The position numbers and the translations under genes were made by a program. 64,000 nt of DNA from Siphonodentalium dalli (Eukaryota > Mollusca > Scaphopoda > Gadilida > Siphonodentaliidae). Where the stretch lies: positions 90,727,319 to 90,791,318 of the forward strand of contig CP136066.1 in NCBI GenBank assembly GCA_032622095.1. The letters run 5' to 3'. Below are positions 4,421-64,000 of the stretch, piece by piece (the first letter of the stretch is position 1; every line of letters begins with the position of its first letter). Below the pieces are notes generated by a model that saw nothing but the letters and a program-made list of their open reading frames with translations, was not told the origin of the DNA and searched no databases.

Positions 4421-4765
4421 ATGATTACCCCGTTGTTATGCACACGCAACTCACAACAGACAAATCGCACGGGCGCTTCGAGGTACCAGAGGCCACAGGG
4501 ACACGAACAGCGCTCTGCTTCCCCCAAACACACTGCCATTATACGCCGTTAATATTTATGCACCTCTAATGTACTAAGCAGGCACATATATATGGACGGC
4601 GTATAAGGGGAGTGTGGGTGGGTGCATGTCCTCTTGTATAATAACTGAAGCTACATTGAAACGACCGCGCGATTTGTTTGTTAAGAGTGGCGCGTGTCTA
4701 ACAATGGGATATCACTGAAATATTAGTTTGCCAGCCTTGGGAATTGGGTGTGATTTACCAAAATT

Positions 4766-13527: not shown

Positions 13528-13790
13528 CTATATCGACATGCTCTGTTCGTCTGTGCTATTTTTGTCGGTTTGAGTGGTTATATCGAAAGGATCATAATTT
13601 TCGGTTGACATGTTATATGTATCGCAACTGGACTTGCTTTTGCGCTTGTTTTGTTGTACTAATTGTTGGGTTGACATGTCATACGGATTGTATGGCTCGG
13701 TTGATGAACTTGCATTGTACATTTTTGCTTCATCGTTTTGAGTTAGCATATCATAAGGGTTGTATGGTTCGGTTGATGAAAATTATTGTT
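13528..13790 (-). repeat. Coding minisatellite after the integrase tail
   Basis: On the minus strand the peptide SSTEPYNPYDM is repeated (13598-13790) with a degenerate third unit, in an Asn/Ser/Thr/Gln-rich context. It directly follows the integrase C-terminal frame and could be its disordered tail in another frame. Confidence 0.6.
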
Positions 13791-14595
13791 TTTCATGATC
13801 GCGTTTTGATGCTATTAACTTATGTGCCATCTCTGGTAGGAGCACTGGTTCATTTGAATCCGATCCGTCCCGGATGACGCGGTTTTGTCGTATTAACTGT
13901 GTTAAGGGGGCTGTCTCATGGTTCTCATTTTCGGTGTCCGAATTGTTACTATTCCTTGATATATCAGCATCTGAGCTTTGTGTTGATGAATTATGTGGGA
14001 ATACAAATCTGCTTTTCCGAACTTTCTGGTTCTCTTGTAATTGTGGTGTATGCCATTTAGTCGTCGCTAATTTTAAATGTTTGGCATGACTTTTAGATAA
14101 ACTGCCTGTAATTTGATTACGAATTACATACGAAACTGGTCCTGTTTGTTTAATTATCACCCAAAATGGATCATATTTCATACCTAGTTTATGGGTTTGT
14201 CTGTGATTCTTAACATAGACCTGGGAACCTATGGGAAATTCCGGTATTTTACCTTTACTGTTTTCGTTTCGTTTCGTCTTGACTTGTTTCATATTTTGTT
14301 TAACTAATTGAAATGCGAAGTGCTGCTTCTCTAGTAACTGTTGGATGAGGCATTCACCCGTGTATTTCTGTCGCGGTGTCAGTATCTTGTCAATATTTAT
14401 TTGGGGGTGTCTGCAGAAAGTTAAAAAATATGGAGAAAATTGAGTCGTTGCTGAGACATGAAAATTCATGGCTTCTGATGCAAAATTGAGAAATAGGTCC
14501 CATGATGTTGGATTTCCTTCAGTTAATTTGGCTAATATTCCATTGTAGTCGCGATAAGATCGTTCACTTGATCCATTACTGAATGGGCTATAATA
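13783..14595 (-). pseudogene. Gypsy integrase C-terminal remnant
   Basis: The frame is the same as pol and is separated from it only by the TAG at 14596-14598. It starts with a block (YYSPFSNGSSERSYRD) that corresponds to the region of the third catalytic residue (the E of D,D,E) in Gypsy integrases. It continues through the SxxxPxxLxxxRxPxxN-like part and the basic C-terminal domain with a GSQVYVKN stretch and a WVIIKQTGPVSYVIRN stretch typical of the GPY/F-type module. The HHCC zinc finger and the two catalytic aspartates are absent. An internal deletion of very roughly 200 codons at about 14590 explains this. The remnant cannot be a working integrase. Confidence 0.85.
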
Positions 14596-17500
14596 CTAGG
14601 TCTTGCGATGCTGAATAACATAGTAGTTAGATATTATTTTCAATATATATTGCTTTGTTATCTTTTCGGGTGGTTTATCGGATTTTAATTTGCGAATTAT
14701 GTCTGAAATAATATGGTCCTCTTTTTGCATTTCTTCGATATTGGTAGGTACATTTAGTTGTTCATTTTCGGAAATTAATATAGTGTCGGGCAACGTATGC
14801 ACTTTTTGTTTACCTATTGTCTTGACGTAATTTTTTATTTTCTGTGAATCTAATATGTTTAGTGATCCGTCATTGATCGCTATGTCATATGGCGTTTTCT
14901 CTTCGCTCTCCACTGAACATTCTGACATACTCTGTTGGTTTGTCGGGTCCACCCGAGAACAAAAGTCAGCGGCGATATTTTCAGACCCTTGTATATAAGT
15001 AATTTTTGGATTGTATGCGGAAATTTCAATAAACCATTTTTGAATACGTTTATTAGCCATCTGAGTATTTTGAAACATAGAAACTAGGGGTAAATGATCT
15101 GTTCGTATTTCTACGTCTGATCCTTCTAGATAGAAATTGAGTTTCTTTAGACATACATATATGGCGAGTGCTTCGCGCTCTGTAGTACTGTAATTTCGTT
15201 GAGAGTGATTCAACTTTTTGCTAACAAAGCAAATTGGAAATTCCGGGGTTTTGCTATCAGTTTCTAATTTGTTTTCTGGGTATGGCTGGACTAATGATCC
15301 CCCCACTGAATGCATTGATGCATCGCAATATAAGATCATTTTCCTGTTCCTATCAGGGTAGGCCAGAGTAGGTACTTTAAGCAAATTTTGTTTTAGTGTA
15401 TCAAAAGCATTTTGACATTCTTCGGACCATGCAAATTTTGCGTAACGAGCAGTCAATTTAATTAATGATGCAGCAGTGTCGGAGAAATCTTTACAATAGT
15501 TCCGATAAAAATTGAAAATCCCTAATACTCTACGGACTTCTTTCACTGATGTTGGGGCTGGCACATCTTGTATGGCTTTAACTTTGGCGGGATCTGGGCG
15601 CGTTCCATTTTGTGATACGATATGCCCTAAAAATTTTACTTCTTTCATATAAAATTGGGACTTTGTTAATCGTGCTACTAATCCATACTCTCTGAGTCGT
15701 TCGAATACTATTTTGAGGTGCTGTTTATGGAGGGCCTCCGTTTCGCTGTGACAAATTAAATCGTCGACGAAGCTGTCAACAAAACATAACCCTTCCAATG
15801 CTTTATGGATTAATGTCAAAAACGTCGCGCTCGAGTTGCAATATCCAAATGGGGCCCTTGTGAAAGAAAACAATCCGAAATCTGTGTTCATAGTTAACTT
15901 TTCTTGATGTTCTTTGATAACACCGATAACATGATAAGCTTGGCTAATGTCGATTGTGGAAAAAACTTTGGATTTTTGGAGGCGGCTGGAAACTTCGGTA
16001 AAAGAGGGGAGGTACCATCGTAATGGGACGGTGATTTTATTTAGCTTTCTCAGGTCTATACATAGTCTATAATTTTGATTTCCATTAGGATCTACGATTC
16101 CTTTACGAATCAATAAGGCAGGGAATGACCAACTCGCGTTTGTAGTTTTCTTTATAATACCAGCATCTAATAATTTTTGAACTACTTTTTCCATGTGTTC
16201 GCGTCTATGTAATGGAGTAGGATACGCGCGACAAAAGATAGGTTCTGCATCTGGTTTGGTATCAACACGCATGACTATTTTATCGCAAAATCCTACCTTA
16301 TTTGGATCGTTTGTAAACACATCTTGATATTGGGAGACCAGTTCAAGTAGTTCAATTTTGTGGTGGTCGGGGGCACTTATATCGTCCAATTTGAAAGGTT
16401 TCTGGCCAGCCTCAGATATTTTTGTTTGATTTTCTATACTAAATACTTCTTGAGAATCATTCATTTTATTTGTGGTGGGTACCTTAGCCTTTGTTTGACA
16501 GATCTGGTCTGAACTTAGGCCATGTGTTTTCGCAACTATATTACCTTTAAATATAGACATATACGAGTCTGAATTATTCATGGTCATGACCGGTATATCT
16601 CGTTTTGATGCAGAAACTATCCCGTCCATAATGGACACATTAGGTTCATCCTTAAATATGCCGATATCGGCGTGACTTACTCCAAGATATGGTGTCTCAT
16701 ACATGTCTGGTGTACCAATTATTTTTGTGTTCACCAATGCACATGAATAGGGTGGTAATTTGATATCTTGCCGCGAACGTAGCAATGATGCTATATGTAA
16801 ATCCTGTAACATGGGAAATGTTTTGTTGCCTACTCTAAATGCATTCAAATCGAAATAGAGTCTTACATGTTTGTCTGTTAAAAAATCGCGACCAAAAATC
16901 GCTGATCTTGCTAGGTTGGGTAATATAAAGAATTTATGTACTAATGACATTGATCCAATTTTGAAGGGCAAATGTATACTGCCGTATACTTGCATATTTT
17001 GGCCTGTTGCTGAGGTCAGAATTATTTTTTCGTTTATTAACGGGGGCTTATTTGGAAGGGAGCGATATACGTCATATTTTAAGCAACTTGTACTTGCTCC
17101 AGAGTCAAGTAATGCCCTAATGCGTTGGTTACCAATTTTAATAATTGTTGAACAAGACGTTTGCTGTTGCAGTCCTTTTGCAATCTCTGCATGGTATTTG
17201 AGTTTAGGTAATGTATGCAATTGCATCTGTTCAGTCTGGTTATTTATACTTTGACAGTTTTTACTTGGCTCATTATTATTATTATTTTGGTAAACCGTTG
17301 CAATTCGATTAGCTTGTCGTTGGTTTCGAGTTTTAGTGTTTACTTCACTATTAATGTCCTTTTGTTTGGGAACGATCTTATGTAATCGTTTATTCATATC
17401 TGTTCTAACGTGACCAGCGGAATTTCTATTTGTAATTGGAGAATGCACGTGTTTGTTCGTGCTCGTATCAGCATGATAAGATGTATTAGGTTTCAATTTA

Positions 17501-17634
17501 TTGGCCTGGTCTGAACGATGTCTCTGTTCTTTTATAGTAACACGTGCTGCTCTGGTGTTTAGGGTACCAGTCGCTGGTTTAGTTGCATAACTATTTTGCT
17601 TTGGGTAATTAGGTGCACATTTATTTATGGTCAT
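14596..17634 (-). CDS. pol: Gypsy pol: protease - reverse transcriptase - RNase H
   Basis: Open frame of 1,012 codons from ATG 17634-17632. The first 140 residues are basic and Asn/Gln-rich. A retropepsin follows with the DSGAS active site at about residue 177. RT spans about 470-670, with motif A TIDISQAYHV (Asp at about 562), an APFGYCNSSATF block and the catalytic box FVDD (about 622-625). RNase H spans about 765-895, with its acidic residues in YCDAS, TEREAL, RTDH and AADFCSR all present. The frame ends in the linker that would lead to the integrase zinc finger and meets a TAG exactly at the integrase deletion. The ATG overlaps the gag stop as ATGA (17634-17631), in the -1 frame relative to gag. 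No canonical slippery heptamer is seen in the 16-nt overlap, so termination-reinitiation is a possible route. Confidence 0.93.
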   Translation of the reverse strand: MTINKCAPNYPKQNSYATKPATGTLNTRAARVTIKEQRHRSDQANKLKPNTSYHADTSTNKHVHSPITNRNSAGHVRTDMNKRLHKIVPKQKDINSEVNTKTRNQRQANRIATVYQNNNNNEPSKNCQSINNQTEQMQLHTLPKLKYHAEIAKGLQQQTSCSTIIKIGNQRIRALLDSGASTSCLKYDVYRSLPNKPPLINEKIILTSATGQNMQVYGSIHLPFKIGSMSLVHKFFILPNLARSAIFGRDFLTDKHVRLYFDLNAFRVGNKTFPMLQDLHIASLLRSRQDIKLPPYSCALVNTKIIGTPDMYETPYLGVSHADIGIFKDEPNVSIMDGIVSASKRDIPVMTMNNSDSYMSIFKGNIVAKTHGLSSDQICQTKAKVPTTNKMNDSQEVFSIENQTKISEAGQKPFKLDDISAPDHHKIELLELVSQYQDVFTNDPNKVGFCDKIVMRVDTKPDAEPIFCRAYPTPLHRREHMEKVVQKLLDAGIIKKTTNASWSFPALLIRKGIVDPNGNQNYRLCIDLRKLNKITVPLRWYLPSFTEVSSRLQKSKVFSTIDISQAYHVIGVIKEHQEKLTMNTDFGLFSFTRAPFGYCNSSATFLTLIHKALEGLCFVDSFVDDLICHSETEALHKQHLKIVFERLREYGLVARLTKSQFYMKEVKFLGHIVSQNGTRPDPAKVKAIQDVPAPTSVKEVRRVLGIFNFYRNYCKDFSDTAASLIKLTARYAKFAWSEECQNAFDTLKQNLLKVPTLAYPDRNRKMILYCDASMHSVGGSLVQPYPENKLETDSKTPEFPICFVSKKLNHSQRNYSTTEREALAIYVCLKKLNFYLEGSDVEIRTDHLPLVSMFQNTQMANKRIQKWFIEISAYNPKITYIQGSENIAADFCSRVDPTNQQSMSECSVESEEKTPYDIAINDGSLNILDSQKIKNYVKTIGKQKVHTLPDTILISENEQLNVPTNIEEMQKEDHIISDIIRKLKSDKPPEKITKQYILKIISNYYVIQHRKT

Positions 17635-18806
17635 ATGTTTTGACAATTACGGATATCGTGGTTGTTCATCTTACATAGTGTGCAAAACTGGAGTTTAATT
17701 TTATTTGGGAAGTTTGGCCGGTTTGAGTTGTAGTCTATATTGTTTACTCGATCCTGACGGATATAATTGTTTTGTCTATTAAAGTTAGCGTTTTGATATT
17801 TTGCTGGCATTCGGAATGGTGGGTTTGAGTGATGATTTGCGCGGTGCACTGGTTTGTTAGTTGCATAGCTATTAGATATATTATTGCGCGGTCTCCATAG
17901 TATGGGACGCCGCCTAAAATGATCAACTTCCATGGGTTGTGGGAAGGAGTCGTGCATTTGGTGTTGTTCATTTGACCTAGATGTTCTATCACCATAGCGA
18001 AGTTTGAACCTCTGTTTAACGTTCATTTCTTTCATTGCGATCTCTGTGGCACGGTCGAGCGACGTTGGGTCATCTTTAATTAAGGTATATTTTATGTGGT
18101 CATCACGTATTCCATCCGCGAAAAATGTTACCAGTTGTGTTTGTACCGCGCGTGTATTTATTTCGTCAATAAAGGCGGTGTTTGCTAGTGATCGAATTCT
18201 CTCTGCGAACATAGGTATTGTTTCCTGGTGTGTTTGTTTTAATGTTCTCAACATGGCCAAGGCCTGTGGTGCGTCACTGATTGCGCTAAAACGAGATCGC
18301 AACTGCGCTTTTAAATCAGGCCATGTGACCGTTAGTGTGCCGTTAACCGTATTTTCATTGATGTATCGCTGCACGAATTCGGAAACAGATGAACGACTTG
18401 TCTGGGCCGCTATTTTAATTATTGTTTCATCCTCTGCACCAAGTGTCGAAGAATATTTCTCTATTTCGTGCATCCAATTGGAAAATTCTGATGGTTTACC
18501 ATCAAATGATCTAACCATTGCGTTCATACCTATAATAGCAGATACTGTTGCCTGTGAATGGGTGGCGGCGGAAGTCTCACGCATTGTCATGTTAAATTGA
18601 CCAATTTCTCGCGTTAGTTGAGAGATGAGGGTATTCTGGGTGTCCTGCGCGCTCGGAATTTGAAAGGATGGATTTGGTATATTTATGTCTTGCATGTTTG
18701 AATTACTGGCCGCGTGTAGGTGGCATTCTCGTTCCATATTGAAAGTTCGACTAAATAAGCTATCTTGATTAGAATATTCTACGGATTCGGGTGGTGGTGG
18801 TTGCAT
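17631..18806 (-). CDS. gag: Gypsy gag polyprotein with CCHC zinc knuckle
   Basis: Intact frame of 391 codons. The central part (about 100-260) resembles the retrotransposon gag/capsid domain: it has a FDGKPSEFSNWMHEIEKY stretch, a WPDLKAQLRSRFS stretch and a MFAERIRSLA stretch, all in the usual order. An Arg/Asn-rich nucleocapsid-like segment follows. One zinc knuckle, CTLCKMNNHDIRNC (C-x2-C-x4-H-x4-C), lies at the extreme C-terminus. The protein should form the particle and bind the element RNA. The stop codon overlaps the pol start. The ATG is the first in a long open frame after about 570 bp of leader. Confidence 0.92.
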   Translation of the reverse strand: MQPPPPESVEYSNQDSLFSRTFNMERECHLHAASNSNMQDINIPNPSFQIPSAQDTQNTLISQLTREIGQFNMTMRETSAATHSQATVSAIIGMNAMVRSFDGKPSEFSNWMHEIEKYSSTLGAEDETIIKIAAQTSRSSVSEFVQRYINENTVNGTLTVTWPDLKAQLRSRFSAISDAPQALAMLRTLKQTHQETIPMFAERIRSLANTAFIDEINTRAVQTQLVTFFADGIRDDHIKYTLIKDDPTSLDRATEIAMKEMNVKQRFKLRYGDRTSRSNEQHQMHDSFPQPMEVDHFRRRPILWRPRNNISNSYATNKPVHRANHHSNPPFRMPAKYQNANFNRQNNYIRQDRVNNIDYNSNRPNFPNKIKLQFCTLCKMNNHDIRNCQNI

Positions 18807-56817: not shown

Positions 56818-57581
56818 CAGGGCCCTATACTATGGACCATAATAATTGTAATCACAAGGTTATGTGAGGTACACAGGAGGCGTCAAGTGCAATAGACCAC
56901 TGTATTGTAATAGTGTAGATTATACCCGTGTGCTCGATCGTGGGCGCATTGCCGATGGGTGATTGGGTTTGATTAGAATGGAATTCACACTGCGGCAAAC
57001 AAGCGGTTGTCTCGTGGCAAACAACCTAAAGTATGTATTGGAGTATTGACCAATTATGACATTCGTGCAGGGACGTTGTTAGAGGGTCTCCTTTGGGGGT
57101 ATACAACTTGGAGTTTAAAAATGCACCTGAGACCCTCTAGCTACTTCTCGTGTACATATTATCAATAGAATACTCCAGCGATTCTGAATGACAACCCAAC
57201 TAGAAATTGAAATACATCGTTGTTGGAACAGACGATAACCATTGACGAAATATAACACAATGCACGAACGGTTGCGGTGTACTCACTGAGCGATTATTTA
57301 AAGGATACCGATTACCACTAATCAAATTGAACACGGGTCACCCATGCACTAGCGATAACATATCAATGAGTGTCTCCGAGGAATCATTTTTTTTCATTGG
57401 TCAATCAAGTCACATGTGGAAAACCTATTATTTTATTGGTCACCATGCATGTGAACGCGGCATTAAGAAGTCGCCAATACACTGTTGGAATAAGAGTGGA
57501 GGTGTATGGTAATCGACACCTTTTGTGTGCCCCACAGAAGCTTGTGATTACAATAATTGTGTTCTATAATATAGGGCCCTG
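56818..57581. mobile_element. hAT-like non-autonomous element, 764 bp
   Basis: Inverted ends of about 40 bp: CAGGGCCCTATACTATGG at the left and CAGGGCCCTATATTATAG (minus strand) at the right, both followed by an AATAATTGTAATCACAAG block. Same terminal design as 21210-26665. There is no coding capacity and no clear 8-bp duplication. It contains the small insertion at 57068-57149. Confidence 0.8.
57068..57149. mobile_element. Miniature CAGGGACGT-ended element, about 82 bp
   Basis: CAGGGACGTTGTTAGAGGGTC at the left and GACCCTCTAGCTACTTCTC at the right are inverted. This is essentially two termini of the 42.2/50.1-kb family joined, nested in the hAT-like element. Confidence 0.7.
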
Positions 57582-57719
57582 GATGTCCATAAATATTTAG
57601 TAAATACCAGCATGATAAATTGAACCATGCAAGCATATAAGCACGCATCTTCATAATGAAATGATGATGCAGTTGTGTTATATTTGATGTATATTTTCTT
57701 CGAGGTTGTCTTTATATAT
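57582..57719. other. Non-coding spacer
   Basis: Nothing recognised. Confidence 0.4.
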
Positions 57720-57889
57720 ACACACTAGAAGGTGACCCGACTTCGTCCGGGCTTTGACCTTGAATTGTCCATTTTGAAGGTCAAGGTCAAGTGGGGTCAC
57801 GATTTGACCAGTCCAAAACACTGCCCGGACAAAAGTACCCCTTTGTATAAAATTTCGTCGAAATCCCATCAAAATTGGCGATTTGACCT
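57720..57889. repeat. Inverted copy of the 31.96-32.23 kb repeat, Penelope insertion flank
   Basis: On the minus strand it shares TTTCGACGAAATTT, TACTTTTGTCCGGGCAGTG and GGTCAAATCGTGACC with 32140-32228. The homology to the Penelope-like element begins at 57890, directly next to it. Confidence 0.8.
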
Positions 57890-57961
57890 GGTCTAACCTT
57901 TGTTCCTACCCCACCCGATCTCAAAGAAACACCACATGTTGTTGAGACGGAGGATGGAACA

Positions 57962-60127
57962 TTGGTTTTACCAGACTCTATGTATGCCATGGAAATGAAC
58001 GGCGGTCCAGCAAGCATGCAATTTAGGGAAGTAACAGCTATGGCTGATTTCTTTCGCAATTCGACAGGTTTAAAAGATCAATTTAAAGAACCTTCGATAT
58101 GGACCCCCTCTGATCGCCAGATTGACCACTCCATTCCCGAGGTCGCTGGCTTAGTCAAAACCGACATCACAAATTTACCAAAATTTCACAACGAGGATAA
58201 CCTCACTAAAGTTGAAAGAACTGCACTAAAAACTCTTCGCAGCAATACAAACATTGTAATCAAACCTTGTGACAAAGGCAGCTCGCTCGTCATCATGTCT
58301 AAAGAAAATTACATTCTAGAAGCGACGCGCCAATTAAGCAACACTAAATATTACAAACCATTGGATGAGCCAATTTGGAAATCCAATGTTTTAAAATTCA
58401 ATCTCATTCTCAAAAGCTTGCTGGACCAGGACGTTTTAAAGAAAAAACATGTTCAGTATCTAATTGCAAAACCTGAATCCAATAATAGGACATTTTATTT
58501 GCTACCTAAAATACACAAACCTTTGAGCTGTTGGACTAATCCATACACACCACCCGGTCGCCCCATCATCAGCGACGTGGCTTCGGAGTCGTACCACATT
58601 TCGGAGTTTATTGATTTCTATTTGAAACCAATTGCTACCCGCCATCCGAGCTATCTAAAAGACACGGAGGACTTCCTCATTAAATTGTCGAAAATTGAAG
58701 TTCCATCTTCTGCTTACCTAATTAGTCTCGACGTGGAATCTATGTATACAAATATTGGAATCGATGCCGGATTAAAGTCAATTAAGAATGCATTTGATTT
58801 CCACCATGATCCTCATAGACCTGGAGATGAACTACTTCAATTATTAGAACTTTCTCTTAAAGGGAATGACTTTGAATTTAATGGACGATATTATTTACAG
58901 GTCTCCGGCTGCAGTATGGGCAAGAAGTTTAGTCCTAATTTTGCCTCAATTTTTGTTGCAGAGTGGGAGAAAGGCGCCTTAGCCAAATCTGATAAACAAC
59001 CATTAGCCTATTACAGATTCTTGGACGACATATTTATCATTTGGACTCATGGTCTGGATGAGTTTAGGGTGTTCTTGGACATCTTGAACAGTCATGACGA
59101 ATCAATCAAACTCAAAGAATCAATATCGCAAACCAGCATTGATTTCCTTGATTTAACAATATTTAAGGGCCCACAATTTACATCATGCAACATTTTAGAT
59201 ACAAAACTTTTTACGAAACCAACGGACTCTCACCAGCTTCTTCATCGTAAATCTTTCCATCCGCCAAAACTGTTCAATGGATTGATTAAATCTCAAATCA
59301 TTCGATACCACCGGAACTGCACGAACAGAAGCGACCTAAATCAAGCTTGTTCAGTGCTGTTCCAGGCTTTACGACCGCGCGGCTACTCTAGTAGATTACT
59401 GCGCCAAGTAAAGTCCGAAACTCTCAGAGAATTGGAATCGTTACGCCATGACCCAACATCGACTGAGCCAACAAGGATACGGCACAATCGACCGGTGTTG
59501 GGTAATGGTTCAGCCTCATTTTGTCACAAAAAACGATGTTACATCGATACAATAGGATATATCAATACTAGTAACACTTTCACCAGCGAACAAACACGCA
59601 TATCGTATCAAATGCATAGCGAACTTAATTGTGATTCTAAAAATGTAATTTACTTAATCACATGCAAAAGATGCCGTATACAATATGTTGGACAAACAAA
59701 AACCTCTCTCAAAGTTAGAATGTCTAATCATCTTTCCAGTGTTCGCAAAAAACTCGACATGCAAATTTCCGATCATTTCAACTCATCTAATCATGACATT
59801 AAATCCCATTTCAGCTTTCAGCCAATAGAACAGACACCAATTCTAGCCGACGAAGACCAAACCGATTCAATACGCCTAGAACGCGAAAATCATTGGATGG
59901 GCGTACTTAAAACATATCTTCCGTTCGGACTTAACATTGACTACAAAGGTGTTTCTCGAAATTTCTTGTGCTTTCCTCTGATCTACAATCGTAGAAATGT
60001 TGAAATCGCAAACATTTTCAGAAAAAACTTTGCATTATTAAACACTAAATTGACCGAGCCTCTCGACAAACGGGTTATTATTGCCTACAGGAAAAATCCC
60101 AGTTTGAGATATGCTCGTTCGATCTAG
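57962..60127 (+). CDS. PLE ORF2, copy 1: reverse transcriptase + GIY-YIG endonuclease (5'-truncated)
   Basis: Intact 721-codon frame; the homologous frame begins at 57890 but has an in-frame TGA at 57884 just upstream, so the N-terminus is cut by insertion truncation. RT: an FYLLPKIHK block (about 178-186), GRPIISDV (199-206), motif A LISLDVESMYTNI with Asp 257, the GCSMGKKFSPNFASIFVAEWE block (about 316-336) and catalytic YRFLDDIF (Asp 355-356). A Cys-rich linker (C521, C526, C557) precedes the GIY-YIG nuclease: NVIYLITCKRC (561-571), YVGQT (575-579), Arg 586 and the likely catalytic Glu in RLERENHW (about 640). This domain order identifies an endonuclease-positive Penelope-like element. No disabling change is visible in the part present. 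Confidence 0.95.
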   Translation: MVLPDSMYAMEMNGGPASMQFREVTAMADFFRNSTGLKDQFKEPSIWTPSDRQIDHSIPEVAGLVKTDITNLPKFHNEDNLTKVERTALKTLRSNTNIVIKPCDKGSSLVIMSKENYILEATRQLSNTKYYKPLDEPIWKSNVLKFNLILKSLLDQDVLKKKHVQYLIAKPESNNRTFYLLPKIHKPLSCWTNPYTPPGRPIISDVASESYHISEFIDFYLKPIATRHPSYLKDTEDFLIKLSKIEVPSSAYLISLDVESMYTNIGIDAGLKSIKNAFDFHHDPHRPGDELLQLLELSLKGNDFEFNGRYYLQVSGCSMGKKFSPNFASIFVAEWEKGALAKSDKQPLAYYRFLDDIFIIWTHGLDEFRVFLDILNSHDESIKLKESISQTSIDFLDLTIFKGPQFTSCNILDTKLFTKPTDSHQLLHRKSFHPPKLFNGLIKSQIIRYHRNCTNRSDLNQACSVLFQALRPRGYSSRLLRQVKSETLRELESLRHDPTSTEPTRIRHNRPVLGNGSASFCHKKRCYIDTIGYINTSNTFTSEQTRISYQMHSELNCDSKNVIYLITCKRCRIQYVGQTKTSLKVRMSNHLSSVRKKLDMQISDHFNSSNHDIKSHFSFQPIEQTPILADEDQTDSIRLERENHWMGVLKTYLPFGLNIDYKGVSRNFLCFPLIYNRRNVEIANIFRKNFALLNTKLTEPLDKRVIIAYRKNPSLRYARSI

Positions 60128-60797
60128 ACTCAGACCTTGATTAACACGCAGTTCAATTAGCTTTTTAGCAATTTCAACATCATTATCCTTTGTTTGTGCT
60201 CAACACAATATTTTATGTCAATTTCCGACACAACCTAACAAAATTTAGCTAGTTCCATAGAAATAATTACATAAGAAATCGGATAACCGACCTGTGCCAG
60301 CGCCCTCCACACTTTCCAAATATATATTACGCCTGTGCCAGGGATATGATTTGTTTCTATTTACTTAACACATATGTATTACTGTCTAATTGCGCGCTGT
60401 CACTAGGATTTGGATTAGGGGCTTCCGGTAGCCATTACACAACCCATTAAGAACGCGCGATCTTGAGGAAACATGAGCCTCGTGTCGGCGCCAAACATTT
60501 TGTAAGCATTGTTTCACTGTGTGCGTTACACACGAACATAGCTGTTGACACGTCTCTCGAAACCCTGAAGCACAATGTGAGCTTATCTCACACGGGTATA
60601 TAAGATCCTCGGAAAAACCTAAACATTCGAACCTAGCTTGCTTCCTGAAGAAGGTAATTCTACCGAAAAGTTGAGGCAACTTGACAGTGCGCTCCTAAGT
60701 ACTTTTTTATTTTATATCTTCGCGTTCCGTTCTTTGTGTATTATATGTTACTAATCATTACCTTTATTCACAGCCAAAATTCAAGTCCTGGATCAAA
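60128..60797 (+). other. PLE untranslated junction: 3' UTR of copy 1 and 5' UTR of copy 2
   Basis: About 670 bp between ORF2 of copy 1 and ORF1 of copy 2, the pseudo-LTR region of the tandem. It contains a twice-occurring CCTGTGCCAG (60291 and 60332), a hammerhead-like core at 60645-60682, and a TACTAAT (60749-60755) with TTTATTCACAG (60763-60773) that resembles an intron branch point and 3' splice site. Confidence 0.8.
60645..60682 (+). ncRNA. Hammerhead-ribozyme-like motif (possibly degenerate)
   Basis: CTGAAGA (fits CUGANGA), a stem GGTA/TACC with loop ATTC, then GAAA, then a 6-bp stem AAGTTG/CAACTT with loop AGG. The order equals hammerhead stems II and III around the conserved core. The base after stem III is G, not the C, A or U needed for cleavage, and stem I is weak. 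Hammerheads are known in Penelope-like elements, so a relic or variant is plausible. Confidence 0.35.
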
Positions 60798-62249
60798 ATG
60801 ACTCAACCAAAACAACCTAAACGTGGAAAAACTAACCGCCCAGAGCGGCAAAAAGACCAGGCTTATTTAGACCATTCAAATCTAGTAAAGTTGCTATACA
60901 AAATTCTACAACTTTGGCACCATATTAATTTTTTACAGGACCGTTTGGAGAAGAAGGTCCTTCCGAAAGGCTTTTCGGCCATCGTTGAGTCAGGGCGAAA
61001 GAAGACATTCCGACCAGTGCTCCCCTGTGAGGATGTCTTCAATTCGCTTAAAGCGGACGCTTTTCAGTGGGGTTTAAACTCCATGAAAACTTTGGTCAAT
61101 TATTATCGGAAAACGGAATCAGAAATTGAAGTCAAGGTTCTTTCGGCTCTTTCTTCTAAAACCCTTGACTTCGACCGATCACGTGATACGGCATTAAAAT
61201 GGGGACTGAAGAATTTTGGCACCAAATTAACTAATGAGACAAAATCAAAGTTCTTGAGCATCTGTGGTAATCTTCAGTCCTCGATAGGTACACGAGTTGG
61301 CGTCCAAACTCATACAAACAAACGTGGTCGGTCACCCTCCCCTCCCCCACTAATCGCTCGCCAGCTTCAATTTCAGGATAGTCCAGCCAGGGATCAGACA
61401 ACGTCGTCGTCTGTGAGATCCACACCAAAACGCGTCAAAGCCACACCACAGCCACAGAGACCTGCACCAAAACCACGGACGTCACGCATATCCACTCCAC
61501 CAAATACATCACTTCAAAATTCACCAGCCAAGAAAACAACACCACCAAAGCACATCTCTTCCAGCCCTCCTTCGCCTGTTGGTTCCATTGCTTCGATGAC
61601 ATCGCCAGCGATTTCAACATCATCACCATCGTATGCCGAGGTATTATCAACATCACCTAAGGTATCCAAATTTTATAAATTTCGTCAACCTGGCCCTAAG
61701 AAGGATTGGTCCTTCCCTAAACAGATAAAAAACCCTGTTGTTATTTTAGGCTCTTCTAATGTGTCCCGGATCGATGTCGATCCTCCCAAAAATGTTTGTA
61801 TTGCTTCTTACCCAGGTGGCAATTTAGGTCATTTCTGCAACATGGCCCACAAACTGAAATCGAAGCCAGAAAAGACACCTCGACACGTCATCATCAACAT
61901 TGGCATCAACAACCGAGAGGACTGGAAGACAGACAACGACAAAGGCAAAACAGCAGGCACCACAGCTAAAAGCAGGGTAACTAACATGGTTAGTAATTTC
62001 CGAAAAGTTTTTCCTAATGCGACACTTCATTTTCAGGAAATAAATATCTCATTCAGTTTAGATTCTAGGGACCAGGATGTTCTGCGTGCCATTAACAGCC
62101 AAGCTCGTCAGACACAGAACCTCAAGGTCATACAGGCAATACCCCCCCGCGACTTTCACGTGGAGAATGACAACATCCACTGGACATCACAGACGGCGGC
62201 GAAAATCTACCAAGGCTGGACCAACATCTTTAAAGGTCATTTAAACTAA
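60798..62249 (+). CDS. PLE ORF1: SGNH/GDSL-hydrolase-like protein
   Basis: Intact 483-codon frame. Residues 1-175 are basic and probably helical. 176-300 are Ser/Pro/Thr/Lys-rich and probably disordered. 305-480 form an SGNH-like domain: block I VVILGSSNVSR (nucleophile probably Ser 320), block II YPGGNLGH (Gly 340-341), block III IINIGINNRED (Asn 371 or 372) and block V DNIHWT (Asp 458, His 461). All four catalytic blocks are present, so it may be an active esterase. An esterase-type ORF1 is known in CR1 LINEs, and GDSL genes occur in some rotifer PLE-derived elements; its job there is unclear. The ATG at 60798 follows a possible 3' splice site. The stop TAA (62247-62249) follows directly after a slippery heptamer that leads into ORF2. 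Confidence 0.9.
   Translation: MTQPKQPKRGKTNRPERQKDQAYLDHSNLVKLLYKILQLWHHINFLQDRLEKKVLPKGFSAIVESGRKKTFRPVLPCEDVFNSLKADAFQWGLNSMKTLVNYYRKTESEIEVKVLSALSSKTLDFDRSRDTALKWGLKNFGTKLTNETKSKFLSICGNLQSSIGTRVGVQTHTNKRGRSPSPPPLIARQLQFQDSPARDQTTSSSVRSTPKRVKATPQPQRPAPKPRTSRISTPPNTSLQNSPAKKTTPPKHISSSPPSPVGSIASMTSPAISTSSPSYAEVLSTSPKVSKFYKFRQPGPKKDWSFPKQIKNPVVILGSSNVSRIDVDPPKNVCIASYPGGNLGHFCNMAHKLKSKPEKTPRHVIINIGINNREDWKTDNDKGKTAGTTAKSRVTNMVSNFRKVFPNATLHFQEINISFSLDSRDQDVLRAINSQARQTQNLKVIQAIPPRDFHVENDNIHWTSQTAAKIYQGWTNIFKGHLN
62240..62246 (+). promoter_or_regulatory. -1 ribosomal frameshift slippery site TTTAAAC
   Basis: In the ORF1 frame the heptamer reads T_TTA_AAC, the canonical X_XXY_YYZ form, and the next codon is the ORF1 stop TAA. 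After a -1 slip the frame runs open without a stop through the RT to the window end. A possible weak stem (TTCC with GGAA, inner GCAT/ATGC) starts a few bases downstream, but I could not test folding. Confidence 0.85.
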
Positions 62250-64000
62250 TTCCTCAGAAGGGCATCAGCCATGCGGAAAGAGTCGGTCTCGGCACCGAGA
62301 TAGTCAATCTTGTACCCGACCTTTCCCTGAGCGCTGGTGAGAAATCAATACTTAGGTATGGTCTAACCTTTGTTCCTACCCCACCCGATCTCAAAGAAAC
62401 ACCACATGTTGTTGAGACGGAGGATGGAACATTGGTTTTACCAGACTCTATGTATGCCATGGAAATGAACGGCGGTCCAGCAAGCATGCAATTTAGGGAA
62501 GTAACAGCTATGGCTGATTTCTTTCGCAATTCGACAGGTTTAAAAGATCAATTTAAAGAACCTTCGATATGGACCCCCTCTGATCGCCAGATTGACCACT
62601 CCATTCCCGAGGTCGCTGGCTTAGTCAACACCGACATCACAAATTTACCAAAATTTCACAACGAGGATAACCTCACTAAAGTTGAAAGAACTGCACTAAA
62701 AACTCTTCGCAGCAATACAAACATTGTAATCAAACCTTGTGAGAAAGGCAGCTCGCTCGTCATCATGTCTAAAGAAAATTACATTCTAGAAGCGACGCGC
62801 CAATTAAGCAACACTAAATATTACAAACCATTGGATGAGCCAATTTGGAAATCCAATGTTTTAAAATTCAATCTCATTCTCAAAAGCTTGCTGGACCAGG
62901 ACGTTTTAAAGAAAAAACATGTTCAGTATCTAATTGCAAAACCTGAATCCAATAATAGGACATTTTATTTGCTACCTAAAATACACAAACCTTTGAGCTG
63001 TTGGACTAATCCATACACACCACCCGGTCGCCCCATCATCAGCGACGTGGCTTCGGAGTCGTACCACATTTCGGAGTTTATTGATTTCTATTTGAAACCA
63101 ATTGCTACCCGCCATCCGAGCTATCTAAAAGACACGGAGGACTTCCTCATTAAATTGTCGAAAATTGAAGTTCCATCTTCTGCTTACCTAATTAGTCTCG
63201 ACGTGGAATCTATGTATACAAATATTGGAATCGATGCCGGATTAAAGTCAATTAAGAATGCATTTGATTTCCACCATGATCCTCATAGACCTGGAGATGA
63301 ACTACTTCAATTATTAGAACTTTCTCTTAAAGGGAATGACTTTGAATTTAATGGACGATATTATTTACAGGTCTCCGGCTGCAGTATGGGCAAGAAGTTT
63401 AGTCCTAATTTTGCCTCAATTTTTGTTGCAGAGTGGGAGAAAGGCGCCTTAGCCAAATCTGATAAACAACCATTAGCCTATTACAGATTCTTGGACGACA
63501 TATTTATCATTTGGACTCATGGTCTGGATGAGTTTAGGGTGTTCTTGGACATCTTGAACAGTCATGACGAATCAATCAAACTCAAAGAATCAATATCGCA
63601 AACCAGCATTGATTTCCTTGATTTAACAATATTTAAGGGCCCACAATTTACATCATGCAACATTTTAGATACAAAACTTTTTACGAAACCAACGGACTCT
63701 CACCAGCTTCTTCATCGTAAATCTTTCCATCCGCCAAAACTGTTCAATGGATTGATTAAATCTCAAATCATTCGATACCACCGGAACTGCACGAACAGAA
63801 GCGACCTAAATCAAGCTTGTTCAGTGCTGTTCCAGGCTTTACGACCGCGCGGCTACTCTAGTAGATTACTGCGCCAAGTAAAGTCCGAAACTCTCAGAGA
63901 ATTGGAATCGTTACGCCATGACCCAACATCGACTGAGCCAACAAGGATACGGCACAATCGACCGGTGTTGGGTAATGGTTCAGCCTCATTTTGTCACAAA
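62240..64000 (+). CDS. PLE ORF2, copy 2 (RT; continues beyond window), read by -1 frameshift
   Basis: From the slippery site the frame encodes an N-terminal extension that includes HAERVGLGTEIVNL, LSLSAGEKSILRYGLTFVP and PTPPDLKETP, a block typical of Penelope RT N-termini (L-S-x-x-E-x-x-L-x-x-G-L-x-F). It then matches copy 1 codon for codon. No ATG precedes this extension in frame, which supports synthesis as an ORF1 fusion; internal initiation at the ATG matching 57962 (62432) would lose it. By comparison with copy 1 it should end at about 64,597, giving about 785 residues after the slip, with the GIY-YIG domain outside the window. Confidence 0.92.

Follow-up and report, generated by a model that had tools for sequence, protein, structure and literature searches.

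The 64,000-nucleotide (nt) window analysed here is a stretch of contig CP136066.1 of the scaphopod Siphonodentalium dalli (assembly GCA_032622095.1). Its 3' end holds a Penelope-like element (PLE), in which a first open reading frame (ORF1) with a C-terminal SGNH/GDSL-like domain is followed in the -1 frame by a reverse transcriptase (RT) gene (ORF2). The two frames meet at a slippery heptamer that directly abuts the ORF1 stop codon, an arrangement that points to -1 programmed frameshifting. The following features belong to the element.

57889..60327 (+): 5'-truncated upstream copy in partial tandem, source of the GIY-YIG domain that lies within the window (~59642-59905)
60328..60797 (+): leader ahead of ORF1, resembling a pseudo-long terminal repeat (pseudo-LTR); start approximate
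60798..62249 (+): ORF1, 483 amino acids (aa), 0 frame, with C-terminal SGNH/GDSL-like domain (from the ORF list; Lipase_GDSL_2 at E 0.012, under the cut-off; SGNH esterases head the Foldseek list)
61689..62246 (+): SGNH-like domain of ORF1 (AlphaFold2 single-sequence model, pLDDT 54.6; Foldseek E 1.3e-4 to 6xpg)
62231..62233 (+): TAA, final -1-frame stop ahead of the joint and boundary of the overlap
62234..62246 (+): sole overlap of ORF1 and the -1 frame that is usable for a shift, 13 nt
62240..62246 (+): slippery heptamer T_TTA_AAC in -1 phase, common to families A, D, E and F
62247..62249 (+): TAA of ORF1, abutting the heptamer
62246..64000 (+), on to 64612: ORF2 in the -1 frame, with a start-less N-terminus, RT (RVT_1 at E 8.1e-7, 29.4 bits, slightly under the cut-off of 29.6) and, beyond the window, a C-terminal GIY-YIG domain
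62253..62339 (+): candidate stimulatory RNA, suggestive only, with a 5-base-pair (bp) stem 6 nt past the heptamer, a second stem (possible pseudoknot) and an inner hairpin

Gene content of the element

The window cuts off the element, and the 3' end of ORF2 at 64612 was read from copy L049. The 5'-truncated and the fuller copy in the window have a tandem spacing of 4470, and arrays elsewhere in the genome are spaced at ~4604-4613. RVT_1 is also matched in the upstream copy (E 5.5e-7, 29.9 bits against the cut-off of 29.6), and the C-terminal GIY-YIG domain is found at E 1.9e-8 in this copy, which belongs to family A, and at E 3.2e-7 in family D. There was no RVT_1 match at E 1 in family D, though it can be aligned to family A. 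With its RT, its C-terminal GIY-YIG domain and its partial tandem/pseudo-LTR layout, the element is an endonuclease-bearing PLE. No relatives were found in scans of viral contigs and prokaryote genome contigs or by tblastn of phage records.

For ORF1, the low-confidence structural model (pLDDT 54.6) gave nine Foldseek matches at E <= 0.001, with SGNH esterases at the top (E 1.3e-4 to 1e-3, template modelling score ~0.5) and sialate O-acetylesterase 6xpg as the best (E 1.3e-4). The blocks GSSN, YPGGN, GINN and DNIHW agree with what we take to be the conserved SGNH blocks. A comparison of ORF1 with solved structures by sequence yielded just two weak matches (E 0.02), both to viral phosphoproteins.

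The joint between ORF1 and ORF2

Read from the ATG at 60798, the last codons of ORF1 are CAT TTA AAC TAA, so that the heptamer at 62240-62246 lies in exact X_XXY_YYZ phase and is adjoined by the TAA, as the first-pass annotation of this DNA had stated. Downstream of the TAA at 62231-62233 the -1 frame stays open into FKLIPQKGISHAERVGLGTEIVNLVPDLSLSAGEKSILRYGLTFVPTP and reads R-S-F-K-L-I-P-Q-K-G...GLGTEIVNL...GLTFVPTP across the joint. Because this TAA is the last stop in the -1 frame, the usable overlap is confined to 62234-62246. The earliest in-frame ATG of ORF2 is located at 62450, 3' of the conserved FVPTP block. Thus, the earlier claim that the RT frame has no start of its own and is open (from 62234) into the conserved RT N-terminus also proved true.

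Copies and diverged families in the host genome

The host genome comprises 2.23 Gb in nine contigs. For a 301-nt region around the joint, all 40 places that were scored (279 first-look candidates) show 100% identity. For the N-terminus of ORF2, identity is 97-100% in all 136 places that were scored (1178 first-look candidates), and 135 of these start at residue 1. These copy numbers are lower bounds, as only 40 of the 279 and 136 of the 1178 candidates were scored. Family A, to which these copies belong, is young and tandem-forming. Since such young copies tell little about selection, diverged families were searched for with degenerate patterns; from one set of 157 places, the first 100 were considered and 30 of them retrieved.

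Besides family A, the genome holds at least three more families (D, E and F). In family D (characterised by RYLDDIFLVW; L054, L059 and others), ORF1 ends in CCT TTA AAC TAA and the RT frame opens 12 nt 5' of the heptamer. In family E (L081), the 475-aa ORF1 ends in TCT TTA AAC TAA. Family F is decayed; CAT or CCT TTA AAC TAA is found in L088-L090 and TTTTAAC in L083, and the joint is absent from L087 and L091. Families A and E share 50.3% identity in ORF1, where 58 of 103 fourfold sites differ, and 65.8% in ORF2 (62 of 110 fourfold sites differing). The respective values for ORF2 are 51.4% (93 of 123) between A and D and 48.4% (53 of 76) between E and D.

Two side observations concern single copies. 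In L106 (C5:98261440-98261740), an altered -1-frame stop ahead of the heptamer results in a longer overlap; heptamer and ORF1 stop are intact and a C run in ORF1 is lengthened. Two near-identical copies at C8:189334229-189335089 and C8:189364767-189365627 have RT frames that are open for 2020 and 9701 codons. As both have an ordinary joint, the long frame must come from the 3' side, perhaps from N runs or a satellite. Copies carrying ORF1 and ORF2 in one frame were looked for, and none was found among the copies examined, these two included.

Conservation of the heptamer

Among the distinct copies read, TTTAAACTAA is present at the joint in 42 of 44 copies of family A, 9 of 9 of D, 11 of 13 of E and 3 of 8 of F. 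For these counts, duplicate rows were merged (L002/L033, L003/L031, L004/L030, L009/L049, L058/L093, L079/L094 and L054/L082), and L085 and L107 (both A) and L087 (F) were scored as misses. The totals cover loci with a joint in the stretch, which excludes ten D loci (L053, L055, L061, L062, L066, L068, L069, L070, L077 and L078) and one E locus (L063); three E places (C5:66871864, 66876297 and 66880730) were left out. The exceptions in family A are L107, which is 5'-truncated, and L085, which is decayed with the joint deleted. In family E, the exceptions are L094, the same place as L079, with an RT carrying a stop, and L103, which has TTTAAAATAA with the still slippery form TTTAAAA; the heptamer is intact in L080. 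When loss of the heptamer from otherwise intact copies was looked for, the losses seen were those in L094/L079, five of the eight copies of the decayed family F, L085 and L107, besides the change to TTTAAAA in L103.

No identical run in the codon alignment of families A, E and D (1317 nt) is longer than TTTAAACTAA with its 10 nt; the next ones measure 9, 8 and 8 nt. Triples encoding the same residue use the same codon in 39 of 178 cases, among them 1 of 21 for Leu and 2 of 11 for Asn. The codon preceding TTA varies (CAT, TCT and CCT for His, Ser and Pro), and its third base is always T. The probability that T, TTA and AAC are all identical among A, E and D came to ~0.001 (product 19/45 x 26/71 x 1/21 x 2/11), with rates from ORF2 transferred to the end of ORF1 and with the stop codon and family F left out. 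The distance from the heptamer to the PTP block is equal in all four families, so that the joint aligns without gaps. Taken together, the location of the heptamer within the sole usable overlap and its conservation across diverged families are beyond chance.

Coding constraint around the joint

Translation of the region behind the joint was assessed in the 47 codons of the -1 frame that follow it, by comparing codons with synonymous-only changes to those with non-synonymous changes. For A and E, this ratio is 17:14 in the -1 frame against 4:28 and 3:30 in the shifted frames; for A and D, 18:21 against 3:39 and 3:38; for A and F, 21:23 against 3:41 and 4:38; and for E and D, 12:25 against 4:35 and 2:37. 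This synonymous excess indicates that the start-less stretch is translated in the -1 frame, 5' of any ATG shared by the families. A start of ORF2 upstream of the RT block was also looked for; there is none in family A, and the only in-frame ATG in this stretch is that of family D (LGMGT), which is absent from A, E and F. Among young A copies, ORF2 shows a purifying signal, with 19:20 synonymous to non-synonymous variable codons against 9:30 and 5:34 in the shifted frames. Of the 32 A loci aligned, 26 entered this comparison; L013, L019, L027, L028, L044 and L045 were dropped because of diverged flanks or decay.

RNA downstream of the heptamer

A stimulator downstream of the heptamer is putative but, in our view, likely; the predicted folding is suggestive only. 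Compared with dinucleotide shuffles, the 100 nt downstream of the heptamer gave z values of -2.45 (A), -2.72 (E), -1.17 (D) and -3.06 (F, 98 nt). A 5-bp stem is available at a spacer of 6-7 in each family, with 4 bp being the best in D, and a crossing second stem is common to A and E (CAUCAGC/GCUGGUG and CACCAG/CUGGUG). The stem pairs of D and F occupy different alignment columns. Folding of this region had been suggested by the first-pass annotation as a search for a stem or pseudoknot; it yielded moderate stability and a candidate 5-bp stem, and a pseudoknot was not established. As a separate observation, the lowest shuffle z along ORF1-ORF2 (-5.1; 153 windows of 100 nt) is found at 62358-62457, ~110 nt past the heptamer.

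Proposed expression mechanism

Based on the sequence, it is very probable that -1 programmed frameshifting produces an ORF1(SGNH)-RT-endonuclease fusion. In this young PLE, both genes would most simply be carried by one transcript. The majority of ribosomes would terminate at the ORF1 TAA, resulting in the 483-aa SGNH-type protein. A minority, depending on the efficiency of the putative slippage, would slip back by one base, the Leu-tRNA moving from UUA to UUU and the Asn-tRNA from AAC to AAA. The slipped ribosomes would resume at CUA and add 788 codons. This would lead to an ORF1-RT-GIY-YIG fusion of ~1271 aa (483 + 788 codons). The presumed outcome is a ratio like that of Gag and Gag-Pol, with ORF1 parts borne on the polymerase. 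U_UUA_AAC is described as one of the most shift-prone heptamers with mammalian ribosomes and as the heptamer of the coronavirus infectious bronchitis virus in the available text of PMC5009743. The proposal of a Gag-Pol-like fusion strategy in a PLE, already made in the first-pass annotation, is thus supported by the joint in families A, D, E and F and by the constraint on the -1 frame, with slippage itself being inferred.

Several results weigh against this interpretation. The SGNH assignment of the ORF1 C-terminus is not backed by Pfam, in which Lipase_GDSL_2 scored 16.6 bits (E 0.012), below the gathering score of 32.9. In young A copies, ORF1 has 6 synonymous and 27 non-synonymous variable codons, which is like the shifted frames, and ORF1 may be loosely constrained over the short term; in the long term, the 50% identity that A and E retain with 56% of the fourfold sites changed speaks for selection on it. 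Two F copies on different chromosomes, L056 and L092, have the non-canonical TTTGAAC in common (TTTGAACTAA), which derives either from one ancestor copy or from the same change occurring twice. All four families come from one host genome. Regarding the predicted stimulator, the excess of stability is moderate when the 100-nt fold is compared with synonymous recodings (z -1.8 in A, -3.4 in E, -2.5 in D and -0.9 in F) and weaker for a 130-nt fold (z -1.6, -1.9, -2.0 and -0.5, respectively). Among other ORF2 windows, this level is also reached by 5 of 37 (A), 0 of 20 (E) and 3 of 38 (D). Stems or pseudoknots at a spacer of 4-10 nt showed no clear gain over recodings, 6 to 48 of 100 of which were as good, depending on the family. 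RNAalifold yielded no conserved consensus structure, the results being weak for each of the sets A, E, F and D; A, E and F; and A and E.

Alternative explanations

It is very improbable that the RT frame is reached by splicing, with an upstream exon being joined to the -1 frame at an acceptor at or after the joint (e.g. CTAATTCCTCAG/AAG) and the heptamer being incidental. Although CTAATTCCTCAG, 3' of the stop in families A and E, somewhat resembles a branch point followed by an acceptor, a spacing of ~8 nt would be tight for a branch site, which counts against splicing. The position of the AG is not kept either; in D it follows after ~5 nt (CTAAATCAG), and in F there is no AG for ~20 nt. Adineta provides a case of an intron within a Penelope ORF, according to the available text of PMC3846280. 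Family D has no AG between the -1-frame stop and the heptamer, so that an exon could not supply the FK of the -1 frame there. Splicing also leaves unexplained that T_TTA_AAC is kept while the preceding codon varies.

Independent translation of the RT is very improbable, whether through re-initiation after termination, leaky scanning, internal entry or a non-AUG start. Stop-start coupling occurs in other retroelements, and a gypsy-like gag-pol pair in the same window overlaps in this way (ATGA). There is no RT-frame ATG near the stop; the one at 62271 belongs to the ORF1 frame, and the earliest in the RT frame (62450) lies behind conserved RT N-terminal sequence. Near-cognate codons such as CTG at 62327 and ATT at 62249 are present. 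In addition, conservation of the heptamer would not be explained.

The least probable explanation is chance or dual coding, in which the ten bases are kept merely through protein overlap (LN-stop over FKL). Amino-acid selection on both LN* and FKL would fix most of the heptamer, in-phase heptamers occur elsewhere in ORF1 as well (5 of 481 positions in all, including a second TTTAAAC at 61073), and 19-nt stretches drawn at random with matching composition contain one in ~1.2% of draws; however, the probability of ~0.001 for the identity of T, TTA and AAC speaks against this reading, and the -1 frame is shut 2 (A) and 4 (D) codons before the heptamer, so that F and K could be read there only via an earlier shift, in an overlap that has no other slippery site. 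Readthrough of the TAA as a route to the RT was rejected, as the 0 frame shuts again 17 codons further on.

Relation to known elements

Hammerhead ribozymes are not known from every Penelope element. In the element described here, neither a hammerhead ribozyme nor any other Rfam family was matched at E 1 in 57500-64000, and none reached the gathering score in the window. At 60640-60700, just 5' of ORF1, there is a CTGAAGA...GAAA arrangement without Rfam match that resembles a hammerhead core by eye. A hammerhead ribozyme has been reported in the terminal repeats of Penelope (available text of PMC6431247).

The element resembles canonical endonuclease-bearing PLEs (Penelope/Poseidon) in having an RT with a C-terminal GIY-YIG domain, partial tandems and a length of ~4.5 kb. 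These are described as single-ORF elements in the available excerpts of PMC11167929, PMC6431247 and PMC6515669. In contrast, the start-less RT is preceded here by an SGNH ORF1 in another frame. The rotifer Athena/Terminon elements are alike in combining a Penelope-kind RT with additional ORFs, some of which are GDSL (available text of PMC5408684 and PMC6431247). Unlike the present element, they are endonuclease-deficient and telomere-attached, their further ORFs are accessory, and no frameshift fusion is described in these excerpts.

Gag-pol -1 frameshifting in retroviruses and LTR elements is alike with regard to the canonical heptamer, the overlap and the enzyme in the -1 frame. In Rous sarcoma virus, the stop also follows directly after the heptamer. 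This virus was the first retroviral case of -1 frameshifting (available text of PMC5009743). The differences from retroviral gag-pol are that an SGNH ORF1 takes the place of Gag, that the RT belongs to the Penelope kind and that the stimulator is putative.

The first-pass annotation was aware of no earlier description of such a design for endonuclease-positive PLEs; one part of it, the SGNH ORF1, has a precedent. SGNH-esterase ORF1s were the subject of a 2013 study, reportedly by Schneider et al. There, an SGNH-type domain in the first ORF was noted for CR1/L2 long interspersed nuclear elements and for some Penelope elements in RepBase, according to the available text of PMC3905857, so that an SGNH ORF1 was already in print. 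For the transposon esterases it covers, this paper lists chordates, cnidarians and sponges, and its main text does not contain the word "frameshift". A literature search, outside of which RepBase lay, found no report of frameshifting in Penelope elements, which does not establish its absence from print; a 2016 review of recoding does not mention Penelope in the first 300,000 of its 475,107 characters.

Other elements in the window and the genome

One further retroelement in the window is the gypsy-like pair mentioned above.

13783-18806 (-): gypsy-like LTR element with gag (17631-18806) and protease/RT/RNase H (14596-17646)

Its pol lies in frame -1 relative to gag, and the 16 nt by which the two overlap contain no canonical heptamer. 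The TGA of gag overlaps the in-frame ATG of pol (ATGA), which suggests that these two genes may be expressed by stop-start coupling.

The genome also contains a second Penelope-like kind, family B, which was used as a contrast only. It is located at L050:1844-4739, and its RT ORF is also found in L039-L043, L046 and L047. This ORF encodes 603 aa, has its own ATG and shows ~31% identity to the RT of the window over the alignment. A charged ORF of 193 aa lies ~500 nt upstream of the RT ORF. No GIY-YIG or other endonuclease match was found in family B.

Implications for Penelope-like elements

Frameshifting would account for the missing start codon of the RT in such elements, for which gene prediction would otherwise wrongly choose an internal ATG. 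It would also set the ratio of ORF1 to polymerase and place the SGNH protein physically on the RT, providing a direct handle on the role of ORF1 in a little understood class of retroelements. Beyond the individual element, we lean slightly towards the view that a whole lineage of endonuclease-bearing PLEs has an economy like that of Gag and Gag-Pol, with an excess of SGNH ORF1 and a built-in, frameshift-dependent ORF1-RT-endonuclease fusion. If this is true, retroviral-type recoding would be an old and stable expression strategy in the third class of eukaryotic retroelements.

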